Translations under genes and position numbers: made by a program | Notes under the pieces: model-generated | The model's input: only the letters and a program-made list of their open reading frames with translations | Told to the model about the DNA's origin: nothing | Databases searched by the model: none | Source: a virus | DNA: 64,000 bases | Direction: 5' to 3' (one strand) | Virus record (IMG/VR): IMGVR_UViG_3300028024_000105 | Location: 1-64,000 of that record | Shown: positions 21,800-25,798 of the stretch, one piece after another | Position numbering within the stretch: position 1 is the stretch's first letter | Layout of the letters: each line of letters opens with the position of its first letter

Positions 21800-22182
21800 T
21801 CAAGCCGGACTGTTACGGCAGGCTGCACGATCCGAAGAACACATGGTGCAAGGGCTGCGCGCTCTTCCTACCCTGCGCCATCGCTTCCGCCAAGGCGCCG
21901 CCGGGCGACATTGCCGAAATAGGCCACATCACGAGGAGTCCAAGCGAACGCCCCAACCTATTCAAGGAGGGCTCGCGCGCCTGGGCTGCCTGCCGGGCCG
22001 CGAACCTGAAAGGCGGGACGTTCCGAGAATCCGAGATCCTGCCGCTGTACATGGCGACCTGCCGTGCCTGGGGCATCGAGCCCGGCAGCGCGGAGCGAAA
22101 CGTCCACCACGCCGTCGTGCAAATGGTGAAGCGGGGCGTCCTACGGAGAGTACGGAAATCCTACATGTCTCATGCTGACTGA
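21796..22182 (+). CDS. Unknown protein with Cys cluster
   Basis: 128 residues; GTG start in a GTGA overlap with the sigma-like gene. CYGRLHDPKNTWCKGCALFL holds a zinc-like cysteine set near the start; the C-terminal half is helical and basic. It overlaps the polymerase gene by 11 bp, so three genes are translationally linked. Confidence 0.55.
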   Translation: MIKPDCYGRLHDPKNTWCKGCALFLPCAIASAKAPPGDIAEIGHITRSPSERPNLFKEGSRAWAACRAANLKGGTFRESEILPLYMATCRAWGIEPGSAERNVHHAVVQMVKRGVLRRVRKSYMSHAD

Positions 22183-25100
22183 CGCCGACTTCACCGACCT
22201 GCACGTCCATTCCAGTTTCTCTCTCCTAGACGGCGCCGCGAATCCCGAACAGTTGCTCGAGGCCAGCCAGCGTCTGGGCCGAAAGCACATGGCCGTGACG
22301 GATCACGGGAACGTCGACGGCTGGCTCCGATTCCAGAAGGCCGCCAAGAAGATGGACGTCAAGCCCATCTTCGGCATCGAGCTGTTCATGCTCGAGAACT
22401 TCGAGGAGCGCCACACCGGCAAGCCAAAGAACCTCCACCTGACGGCCATCGCCAAGACCGAGCAGGGCCTGGGCAAGCTCGTGCAGGCGTGCGGCTTCGC
22501 GAACATGGAGGGGATGGGAAAGAGCGGCTACGCCGCCCGGCCGTTCCTTCCGATGGACTACCCCATCGTGAACAAGTGGCCCGGCGACGTGATCATCATG
22601 ACCGGCTGCGCCAGCTCGCCTTTCTGGAACGCCGCCGACGGGATCGAGCTGCTCGGCTACTACGCCGACGCGTTCAAGGGCGACCTGTACGCGGAGATCA
22701 TGCCGAACGAGGAGTTCGAGCTGCAGAAGACGATCAACGCGTCGGCGATGCAGGCCGCGAGCTACTTCGGGATCAAGCCGGTGGTCACCACCGACATCCA
22801 CTACATCTCGCCCGAAGACAGCGAGTTCCACGAGGTCGTCATCGGCCTGTCCCAGAAGTACATGACCTGGAGCAACCCGAAGCGCTGGAAGTTCGAGTCG
22901 CACAACAACTACGTCCACAACATCACGCAACTAGTCGAATCCCTCATGCGCATGGGCCTGACCGAAGAGCAGGTCCGGCAGATGGTGTTCAGCACCAGCG
23001 AGATCGCCGAGAAGACCATCCACAAGATCCACCAGCCGACCATCAAGTTGCCGCCAGTGATCGGAGACATCAGTGAAGAAGAAGAGCGAGAGCGGTTCCT
23101 ACAGCTCGTCCTCGACGGGCTCCGCACCCGAGGCGTTGCGAACACGCCCGGGTATCTCGAGCGCGTCGCGGCCGAATACGACATCATCGCTCCCAAGGGC
23201 TTCGTCCGGTACATGCTCATGGTTTGGGACGTGGTGCGCTGGGCCAAGTCGCACGGCATTCTTATCGGTCCGGCGCGCGGTTCTGTGGGTGGGAGCCTGG
23301 TTGCGTTTGCTCTTGGAATAACCGACATCGACCCGATCAAGTACCGGCTCTGGTTCGAGCGCTTCATCGACCCCGAGCGCATCGACATGCCGGACATCGA
23401 CATCGACATCGAGGACCGCAACCGACACCTGGTCGAGCAGTACCTCAAGGAGAAGTACGGCCAGTGGAACGTCGCGCACGTCTCGACCTTCGCGTCGATG
23501 CTGGGCAAGATGGCGCTGAAGGACGTCGGCCGCCTGTTCGAGGTCCCGCTCGCCGAAGTGCAGAAGATGTGCAACTGCATCATCCACGCACACGAGTCGG
23601 ACGTCCGAGCGCACCTGACGATTCAGGACACCATCGCGAGCGGCGACGCGACGGCCGTCGAGTTCCAGAAGAAATACCCTCATGTCGTCCACTTCGCCCA
23701 GAAGCTCGAGGGGCAGGTCCGTGGGTGCGGCATCCACGCGGCCGGGTTCGTGATCTCCGACGAGGACCTGCGCACGTCGGCGCGCGCCTACCTAGTCACC
23801 CGGCGCGACAAGGTCACGATCAACTGGGACAAGAACGACGCCGAATCCATGGGCTTCGTCAAGCTCGACCTGCTCGGGCTGCAGACTCTGTCGGCCGTCG
23901 CCGAGGCATCGCGTCTGATCGAGGCGCGCCACGGACGCAAGATCGACTTCACTCAGCTCCCCCTGGATGACCCCAAGACGTACGAGATGATCCAGCGCGG
24001 CGACACGGTGACCTGCTTCCAGATCAACACGCCCAGCATGCAGAGGTACTGCGCGAAGCTGAAGCCCGAGAACTTCGAGCACCTGGCCGCCATCACCGCG
24101 CTGTGGCGCCCCGGCCCAATCCAGTCCGGCGCCGCAGACATGTACGCCAAGTGCAAGAACGGCCTGGAGCCTGTCCACTACGCCAGCGACGCCTTCAAGA
24201 GCATCACCGAGATCAGCTACGGGCAGATGATCTATCAGGAGCAGGTTGCCCAGATGCTGATGAAGCTGGCGGGCTACACCTACGCGCAGGCCGACAAGGT
24301 CCGCAAGATCGTGTCGAAGAAGGGCGGCGTTCAGGCGTGGGACGACGAGGAGCCCAAGTTCGTGGCGGGCTGCGAGAAGATCGGCCTGCTGAACCCCGAT
24401 CAGGCACACGAGCTGTGGCAGTCCTCCAAGATGTTCGCGCTCTACGCGTTCAACCGTGCGCACTCGGTCGGCTACGGCATGCTGGCCTACTGGACCGCGT
24501 ACCTGAAGGCGAACTACCCGGCCGAGTGGCTCTGCTCGTTCCTGAACTACGGCAACGCGGACCGCGAGGATCTGAAGACCGGGGAGATCAACCGAGATGT
24601 TGCTCTGCGCGAGGCCCTGCGCTCGGGCATCGAGATCCTGGTCCCCGACATCAACGAGTCCGACGTGATCTGGACCGTGGCAACGACCAAGCACAACAAG
24701 CCCGCCCTTCGGGTCGGCCTGCAGGACATCAAGTTTGTCGGCGAGACGGCTGTCGAGGAGATCCAGAAGCTGAAGTCCCGTACCCGCCAGATCGAGACGC
24801 TCGAGAAGTTCGTGCTCGAAGGGGTCGACCGGCGCTGCTGCAACAAGAAGGTGATCAAGGCTCTATTCTACTGCGGCGCTTTCGATCAGATCATCTCGCC
24901 CGACATCTACGACCGCTGGGTGAAGCAGTACGACCAGATGTACGACACCATGGAGAAGCCCAAGAAGCGGGCCGAGCTGCTTGCGACCGCCGTTCCTGAA
25001 GGTGAGAAGCAGGAGATCATCGCGCGCGAGCGCAACATCTTCCTGCGGTTCGATCCTCTCGCCATCGACGGTGCGAACGCGGCCGAGCGCATGGCCAAGA

Positions 25101-25798
25101 TCCTGGGAGGCACGCTCGACCTGGACGCCGAGGAGCCCTTCATCCAGCGTGGCGAACTGAAATGGCCGGTCTCCGATGCTACTCTTGGATTGCTGCCCGG
25201 CGCCAACGGCGTGCTCGGCGAACGTCCGGCGGACGTCCGGCAGATCCGCAAGGACACCAAGGACTGCCAGCTCTGCGACCTGCGTGGCTCCTGCAAGGCA
25301 CCCGTGCCCGTCGACCCGGGCCAGCTCGACATCATGGTGGTGGCCGAGGCGCCCGGGAAGAACGAGGACAAGGTCGGCAAGCCGCTGATCGGAGACTCCG
25401 GAAACGTGCTCTGGCCTGAGCTGGAGCGTCTCGGTGTCTCTCGCGAGATGGTCTACGTCTCGAACTCCGTCAAATGCCTGCCCCCGGCGAAGACCAAGCC
25501 CACGCCCGAGCAGATCGACGGTTGCCCGTGGCTCGAGAAGGAGATCAAGGCCATCAAGCCGAAGACCATCCTGGCGCTGGGCAACTCCGCGCTCTACTAC
25601 TTCACGGGGAAGGAGAAGGGCATCATGGAGATGAACGGCAAGACGGAGTGGAACACCAAGGCGAACGCGTGGGTGACCTTCTGCATCCACCCGGCCAATC
25701 TGCTGTACGCGCGCGAGGCCGAGGAACTGGCGTCCCGGGAGCTGATGTTCCGCGAGGCGTTGACCGAATTCGCGCGGGTCATTTTTCAATTTGCATGA
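22172..25798 (+). CDS. DNA polymerase III alpha fused to uracil-DNA glycosylase
   Basis: 1208 residues. Residues 1-280: PHP domain (DLHVHSSFSLLDGA, VTDHGNVDGW). Residues 350-500: catalytic palm with ARGSVGGSLV and PDIDIDIED, the aspartates that bind Mg2+. Fingers include LWRPGPI; a helix-hairpin-helix-like segment (NKKVIKALFYCGAFD) follows near 890. The beta-binding and OB domains of cellular DnaE appear reduced. From about residue 1030 a family 4-type uracil-DNA glycosylase begins: CQLCDLRGSC, VVAEAPGKNEDKVGKPLIG, YVSNSVKCLPP and IHPANLL, with cysteines for an iron-sulfur cluster. The replicase of this phage can thus excise uracil itself. Confidence 0.9.
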   Translation: MLTDADFTDLHVHSSFSLLDGAANPEQLLEASQRLGRKHMAVTDHGNVDGWLRFQKAAKKMDVKPIFGIELFMLENFEERHTGKPKNLHLTAIAKTEQGLGKLVQACGFANMEGMGKSGYAARPFLPMDYPIVNKWPGDVIIMTGCASSPFWNAADGIELLGYYADAFKGDLYAEIMPNEEFELQKTINASAMQAASYFGIKPVVTTDIHYISPEDSEFHEVVIGLSQKYMTWSNPKRWKFESHNNYVHNITQLVESLMRMGLTEEQVRQMVFSTSEIAEKTIHKIHQPTIKLPPVIGDISEEEERERFLQLVLDGLRTRGVANTPGYLERVAAEYDIIAPKGFVRYMLMVWDVVRWAKSHGILIGPARGSVGGSLVAFALGITDIDPIKYRLWFERFIDPERIDMPDIDIDIEDRNRHLVEQYLKEKYGQWNVAHVSTFASMLGKMALKDVGRLFEVPLAEVQKMCNCIIHAHESDVRAHLTIQDTIASGDATAVEFQKKYPHVVHFAQKLEGQVRGCGIHAAGFVISDEDLRTSARAYLVTRRDKVTINWDKNDAESMGFVKLDLLGLQTLSAVAEASRLIEARHGRKIDFTQLPLDDPKTYEMIQRGDTVTCFQINTPSMQRYCAKLKPENFEHLAAITALWRPGPIQSGAADMYAKCKNGLEPVHYASDAFKSITEISYGQMIYQEQVAQMLMKLAGYTYAQADKVRKIVSKKGGVQAWDDEEPKFVAGCEKIGLLNPDQAHELWQSSKMFALYAFNRAHSVGYGMLAYWTAYLKANYPAEWLCSFLNYGNADREDLKTGEINRDVALREALRSGIEILVPDINESDVIWTVATTKHNKPALRVGLQDIKFVGETAVEEIQKLKSRTRQIETLEKFVLEGVDRRCCNKKVIKALFYCGAFDQIISPDIYDRWVKQYDQMYDTMEKPKKRAELLATAVPEGEKQEIIARERNIFLRFDPLAIDGANAAERMAKILGGTLDLDAEEPFIQRGELKWPVSDATLGLLPGANGVLGERPADVRQIRKDTKDCQLCDLRGSCKAPVPVDPGQLDIMVVAEAPGKNEDKVGKPLIGDSGNVLWPELERLGVSREMVYVSNSVKCLPPAKTKPTPEQIDGCPWLEKEIKAIKPKTILALGNSALYYFTGKEKGIMEMNGKTEWNTKANAWVTFCIHPANLLYAREAEELASRELMFREALTEFARVIFQFA

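Follow-up and report, generated by a model that had tools for sequence, protein, structure and literature searches.

The DNA analysed here, called the window, is a stretch of 64,000 nucleotides (positions 1 to 64,000 of IMG/VR virus record IMGVR_UViG_3300028024_000105). On its plus strand, it encodes a DnaE-type DNA polymerase III alpha subunit that continues in the same chain into a uracil-DNA glycosylase (UDG) domain. Our best reading of this sequence is an all-in-one replicase, in which synthesis, PHP proofreading, and uracil excision would be combined in one protein of a tailed phage. With some reserve, we favour a probably active UDG next to an intact PHP site, where the UDG would excise uracil and the domain would also have a non-catalytic role. 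The window is part of an uncultured group in which the UDG and the PHP sites are mostly both retained.

The gene and the parts of its product are located as follows (source of the assignment in brackets; pLDDT, predicted local distance difference test).

22172..25798, plus strand: whole gene, DnaE-type DNA polymerase III alpha with C-terminal UDG, 1208 amino acids (open reading frame, Pfam, NCBIfam)
22196..22702, plus strand: PHP domain, residues 9–177 (Pfam)
23105..23878, plus strand: polymerase palm/thumb (DNA_pol3_alpha), residues 312–569 (Pfam)
23885..24379, plus strand: finger domain, residues 572–736 (Pfam)
24626..24892, plus strand: helix-hairpin-helix region (HHH_6), residues 819–907 (Pfam)
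25076..25225, plus strand: linker, residues 969–1018, predicted disordered with pLDDT <50 (AlphaFold model)
25265..25759, plus strand: UDG domain, residues 1032–1196 (Pfam, NCBIfam, alignment, model)

The frame 22172–25798 is uninterrupted over 1208 codons, and codon use calls a single gene. All five Pfam domains of the product (PHP, DNA_pol3_alpha, finger, HHH_6, UDG) score above gathering. An earlier note on this DNA had claimed a DnaE-type alpha subunit and a complete UDG with cluster cysteines on a single chain, which is confirmed by the open frame, the Pfam matches, and the aligned residues. A frameshift between the domains, which the note had named as one possible refutation, is excluded, as the frame is continuous and the architecture recurs in 22 contigs and seven named phages. 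Because independent records carry the same fusion, it is not a frameshift artefact, and the probability that misassembly or a missed frameshift joined two genes is negligible.

PHP site: The nine metal ligands of the bacterial DnaE PHP site are all present in the window protein (H11, H13, D20, H45, E70, H89, C146, D208, and H210). D208 and H210 fall outside the Pfam PHP stretch.

Polymerase core: The catalytic aspartates D410, D412, and D566 are present and aligned across every row compared. The NCBIfam profile for DnaE (TIGR00594) is passed with 744 bits at a curated cut-off of 434.

Linker: The AlphaFold model of residues 1–1200 (mean pLDDT 82) resembles DnaE structures as a whole and 1UI0 in its tail, and the UDG is well predicted. 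As the pLDDT of residues 969–1018 is below 50, this linker is probably flexible. No Pfam match lies between residues 907 and 1048, where the model is helical with a disordered linker, and neither Pfam nor the predicted model contains an OB fold or a tau-binding domain between the HHH region and the UDG. The window protein is not a canonical DnaE1, which has an OB fold and a C-terminal domain after the helix-hairpin-helix (HhH) region.

UDG domain: The domain starts at about residue 1020, after the disordered linker. PF03167 matches residues 1048–1196 with an E value of 2e-24 (86.7 bits, gathering 24.3). The family-4 profile TIGR00758 covers residues 1032–1191 and scores 111 bits there, short of the curated cut-off (125.3); hence, we speak of a "family 4-like" rather than a "family 4" UDG, and the earlier label of this kind was right. 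The scores for Arch_udg (113 bits, cut-off 250) and for the UdgX family TIGR03914 (102 bits, cut-off 190) are below the cut-offs as well. The domain is family-4-like and divergent. The best structural matches for a model of the C-terminal piece are 1UI1 and 1UI0 (template modelling scores of 0.88 and 0.86 over the target), and free-standing family-4 UDGs have about 29–33% identity to this model in structural alignments.

UDG site: In the alignment to 1UI0, Cys1032, Cys1035, Cys1102, Cys1118, Glu1059, Asn1098, and His1173 are all present. The iron-sulphur (Fe-S) cysteines have the family-4 spacing C-x2-C and C-x15-C. E1059 and H1173 align with E41 and H155 of 1UI0, that is, with the catalytic motif A Glu and motif B His. 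Among 22 aligned C-terminal regions, no variation is seen at any of the four Cys or at the Glu, and the His is conserved in >90%.

Intact and dead copies of the fusion

With the C-terminal region as query, tblastn matched 51 out of 50,697 phage records. Twelve of them, from Pseudomonas and Rhizobium phages and including the RefSeq copy of nickie, have a dnaE or DNA polymerase III alpha annotation at the matching place, and seven named phages out of these 12 were compared. IMG/VR was scanned with an alignment of the fusion and with an alignment of the UDG, and the matches were sorted by local profiles. With duplicates removed, 22 distinct contigs have a C-terminal UDG on DnaE; the window itself (L001), the L013 copies L014, L104, and L155, and the L021 copy L099 were left out of this count. 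The window, the 22 contigs, and the seven phages make up 30 distinct fused proteins, where some contigs cover the C-terminal part only. Other UDG matches are free-standing, cut by contig ends, or N-terminal on longer PolA-type frames, a label taken from length and position rather than from a profile (for L004 and L012 from the record annotation). The same fusion, which the earlier note had proposed to look for in related phages, was thus found: 22 IMG/VR contigs carry it, as do seven isolated phages and plasmids that resemble phage-plasmids. In 22 fused records, PF03167 matches nothing besides the fused copy. In cellular genomes, a scan restricted to the UDGs closest to that of the window found the fusion to DnaE in none of 80 loci.

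The seven UDG residues compared are all kept in 18 of the 30 fused proteins (the window and 17 contigs). In L114 and L115, the fourth Cys sits beside the aligned column, apparently through an alignment shift only, and L106 has Ser for Asn in the UDG site. The catalytic His is lost in nine proteins, namely the seven named phages, L022, and L023. In the named phages, the His is replaced by Asn or Ser and the Glu by Asp; none of the cluster cysteines is left in the Rhizobium phages, and the third is lost in Nickievirus. Among the 24 fused proteins of full length, the window and 16 others (17 in total) keep all nine PHP ligands. The seven named phages keep none of them, where a separate alignment shows a His in one ligand column of RHph_N1_10. 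Both sites are also dead in the four whole genes from plasmids (Acinetobacter, E. coli, Sinorhizobium, Klebsiella), and all 11 named copies examined in full (seven phages, four plasmids) have the UDG and the PHP sites destroyed.

On the Acinetobacter plasmid p6200-114.848kb (L255, 1986–6229), a NUMOD4 endonuclease gene splits dnaE into two frames, and the C-terminal piece, which has the same dead UDG, bears its own annotation as "uracil-DNA glycosylase family protein." The open reading frame 1–3423 of L106 has an insert of about 360 residues that, as read from the sequence, has intein-like ends and endonuclease-like sequence.

The ratio of nonsynonymous to synonymous substitutions (dN/dS) was obtained by Nei-Gojobori substitution counting, without a significance test. 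For six pairs of dead UDG domains, it was 0.071, 0.044, 0.222, 0.011, 0.174, and 0.427, and for the polymerase core of the same pairs, 0.072, 0.086, 0.140, 0.000, 0.155, and 0.263. One more dead pair was saturated. The pair L016/L109, in which the His is kept, gave 0.113 for the UDG versus 0.045 for the core. The dead UDG domains of the sister lineages are constrained about as much as the polymerase core, with purifying selection where tested. Hence, the dead domain is probably kept for a role other than excision.

Possible roles of the UDG domain

In the proposed mechanism, the flexibly tethered family-4-like UDG, which replaces the OB and C-terminal (tau-binding) domains of DnaE, would bind DNA beside the polymerase. 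From there, it would excise uracil, stemming from dUTP incorporation or cytosine deamination, out of phage DNA; uracil removal at the fork is plausible, where both the activity and the place of action are inferred. The UDG fold may also act without catalysis in replication, by holding DNA or by replisome contacts, in analogy to poxvirus D4. That the UDG stands where DnaE otherwise has its OB and C-terminal domains points to a structural role too, and as the domain looks dead in the best-known relatives yet is kept, its task is probably twofold, DNA repair and help in holding DNA.

We consider it unlikely that the fold serves solely to hold DNA or to aid processivity where the OB and C-terminal domains would be, with a residual active site that matters little. 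Such a module would explain why nine of the 30 fused proteins retained the domain after loss of catalytic residues and why dead copies are under purifying selection, and it has parallels in the processivity suggested for PolA UDG domains (PMC5135824) and in poxvirus D4, a UDG that is a processivity factor. However, the window and 17 contigs conserve exactly the Fe-S cysteines and the catalytic residues, which pure structure would not need, and a simple replacement of the clamp system by the UDG fails because 8 of 15 fused window/contig records carry a clamp-loader-like gene.

A uracil sensor would bind uracil in the template before the polymerase gets there and would stall the polymerase with no need for excision, comparable to archaeal family-B polymerases. 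The UDG does sit where DnaE has its OB domain (domain order as in PMC3919608), but the intact group conserves the full catalytic set, and the disordered linker of the model argues against a fixed read-ahead pocket. We regard a sensor as very unlikely.

Several points weigh against the replicase with an excising UDG that we favour. Motif A of the window starts with Ala-Glu, not Gly-Glu, and the family-4 NCBIfam cut-offs are missed. The second contig scan over-samples intact copies because it was queried with intact UDGs; the distinct copies from the first, DnaE-based scan are intact in L013, L016, and L021 and dead in L022 and L023. A DnaQ-like exonuclease (PF00929) is present in all seven named phages, in one of 15 fused window/contig records, and in none of five unfused relatives; this speaks for the favoured reading, but the contrast could stem from a single evolutionary event or from two, and absence counts are weak because contigs may be incomplete. 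In the DnaE-core tree, which has 46 proteins, the supported fused clade includes five nested unfused DnaE whose sequence stops just past HHH; their records gave no PF03167 match, and their position indicates loss of the UDG domain in this group. Long, weakly placed branches of this tree lead to the window, L013, and the named phages. In the UDG tree (104 rows), the window shares a set (support 95) with three cut contigs and another 22 rows fused to DnaE, whereas the UDGs of the named phages are placed apart. The fusion label needs two changes on the UDG tree with the cut contigs left out, and a single origin of the fusion is unproven because the UDG of the named phages falls elsewhere.

Four unfused DnaE in the fused clade (L015, L017, L019, and L020; about 900–970 amino acids) have a clamp-loader-like ATPase gene shortly downstream. 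Clamp-loader-like genes occur in four of five unfused clade members, in none of the seven named phages, and in none of nine other unfused phages. With the 8 of 15 fused records given above, we rejected the UDG as a general stand-in for the clamp loader or the sliding clamp. Matches to the third domain of the beta clamp were found in 5 of 36 records, every one under the family cut-off. A dUTPase is encoded by three of the seven named phages (all three Rhizobium phages) and by none of 16 window/contig records; a link between an intact UDG and a missing dUTPase is suggestive only. Thymidylate synthases have no clear pattern: ThyA is clear in five of the seven named phages, with three weak partial matches among 16 others, and ThyX has four clear contig matches and two weak ones in Rhizobium phages.

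Tentatively, the uncultured lineage would have a self-correcting single-chain replicase, in which PHP proofreading would run 3'-5'. In its known relatives (Nickievirus, Rhizobium phages, phage-plasmid-like elements), both correction sites would have died, phage proofreading would come from the DnaQ-like protein, and the dead UDG fold would be kept as a pure replication module. We hold this scenario to be possible, with somewhat less than even chances.

Gene neighbourhood and the dCMP deaminase

The virus record that contains the window has 96,810 bases, and the fused gene is its sole PF03167 match. Genes for portal, major head, and tape-measure proteins are present, and the replication-type genes by Pfam are DnaB, primase-like (weak matches, mostly under the Pfam cut-off), gp32-like single-strand binding protein (SSB), RecA, and SbcCD-like. 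The structural genes, an integrase, and the phage's own replication set indicate a tailed phage. No near DNA match for window positions 20000–40000 was found in the phage collection, and a close-relative scan of viral contigs with the whole fused protein returned nothing. The following genes are discussed below.

21227..21799, plus strand: sigma-factor-like gene, two genes upstream of the fused gene (weak, PHROG E 6e-5)
26281..27276, plus strand: gp32-like SSB, downstream gene in the shared replication module (Pfam)
27789..28754, plus strand: RecA-like recombinase, shared replication module (Pfam)
28869..30047, plus strand: SbcD-like phosphoesterase, shared replication module (Pfam)
30049..32064, plus strand: SbcC-like ATPase, shared replication module (Pfam)
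45960..46541, minus strand: dCMP/cytidine deaminase (PF00383, E 1e-22; best PHROG "dCMP deaminase")

Gene order was compared at 27 loci, of which L014 and L155 duplicate L013 and several are too short for the module. The order DnaE-UDG, SSB, RecA, SbcD, SbcC is common to the window, L013, and Pseudomonas phage nickie. The shorter order DnaE-UDG, SSB, RecA is found in L003, L008, L011, L016, L102, L105, L115, and the Acinetobacter plasmid L254, and some loci, e.g., L021 and L093, have RecA without a recognised SSB. Gene order supports that DnaE-UDG and its neighbours form one module. In Rhizobium phages B1VFA and RHph_X66, a sigma factor is likewise encoded two genes upstream of DnaE-UDG.

The dCMP deaminase that the earlier note had placed at 45960 is confirmed by PF00383 and PHROG. 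A dCMP deaminase makes dUMP for thymidylate synthesis. The proposed tie to the fusion is not supported: the gene is 20 kb away on the opposite strand, beside a C5-cytosine DNA methyltransferase gene directly downstream of it (window 45036–45947, minus strand, PF00145, E 1.5e-32), and PF00383 occurs in 5 of 23 records examined and in none of the seven named phages. It had also been suggested that the fusion protects against a host cytosine-deaminase defence, for which we found nothing in support. In this explanation, the fusion and the dCMP deaminase would guard the phage against a host cytosine-deaminase or dUTP-raising defence, and both are indeed in the same record. With the deaminase unlinked and rare, no defence or counter-defence gene recognised beside the fused gene, and uracil excision from heavily uracilated DNA being expected to break the DNA, we regard it as highly improbable.

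Elsewhere in the window, there are genes for a Thg1 (tRNA-His guanylyltransferase-like, PF04446; 17838–18500, plus strand), which is unusual for a phage, and for an RNA ligase with a PHA02142 OB-fold domain (34659–35672, plus strand). A tyrosine integrase gene (PF00589; 55510–56601, plus strand) lies about 0.8 kb from a tRNA-Arg gene (57367–57443), and lysogeny with an attachment site is possible. Further phage-carried genes encode a radical SAM/SPASM protein (58001–58981, minus strand) and a sugar aminotransferase and an NAD-dependent epimerase (1450–2562 and 9201–10154, plus strand).

Comparison with known systems

DnaEX: A DnaE in which an archaeal-type UDG replaces the OB and C-terminal domains was described in 2013 (Timinskas et al., PMC3919608). 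DnaEX and the window protein share the order PHP, polymerase, HhH, and then a PF03167 UDG where OB and C-terminal domains would stand. Unlike the window protein, DnaEX was reported from some strains of Yersinia pestis and Salmonella enterica, as an additional polymerase. The plasmid relatives have dead UDG and PHP sites, whereas the window keeps both.

Named phages: Nickievirus (nickie, Nican01, ZY21, hairong) and Rhizobium phages B1VFA, RHph_X66, and RHph_N1_10 have a C-terminal UDG fold like that of the window, and their proteins are annotated merely as DNA polymerase III alpha. Four copies aligned have 27–30% identity to the window protein. Unlike the window, these phages have lost UDG site residues and PHP ligands and have a separate DnaQ-like exonuclease.

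UDG-PolA: SPO1-type polymerases, e.g., of the Bacillus-group phage Shbh1, share a UDG on a replicative polymerase with the window, and their UDG domains were suggested to aid processivity (PMC5135824, citing Kazlauskas and Venclovas 2011). Thermus phage phiLo (PDB 9qhs) has another UDG-PolA fusion. SPO1-type polymerases are of family A with an N-terminal UDG on separate branches of the UDG tree, whereas the window polymerase is of the C family with a C-terminal UDG.

Free-standing family-4 UDG: The enzymes of Thermus (1UI0), Thermotoga (1VK2), and Sulfolobus (4ZBX) have the fold, the four Fe-S cysteines, and the Glu/His motifs of the window domain but are separate enzymes.

Poxvirus D4: D4 is a family-1-like UDG. 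With A20, it provides an analogy for a UDG that doubles as a part of a viral replicase, as proposed for the window; it is a separate subunit in a eukaryotic virus, and the likeness is by analogy only. D4 is described as a processivity factor (PMC10253040) with a replication role independent of catalysis (PMC1936997).

Viral replicases repeatedly recruit UDGs (poxvirus D4, herpesvirus UNG, SPO1-type PolA), for repair or for structure. If the scenario of the self-correcting replicase is true, the present family would be a natural experiment in which the catalytic and the structural role of a viral replicative UDG come apart. One prokaryotic virus family has both catalytically intact and dead copies, at an identical position of the polymerase chain, which makes the question directly testable with single-chain enzymes. 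Named DnaE-UDG proteins should not be assumed to be uracil repair enzymes.

A literature search, with subscription papers mostly outside its reach, gave no mention of a catalytically dead UDG in DnaE. The architecture itself is not new in kind, as DnaE-UDG (2013) and UDG-PolA are known. What seems new is the intact uncultured group that includes the window and, next to it, the named copies examined, which are dead at both sites yet constrained.

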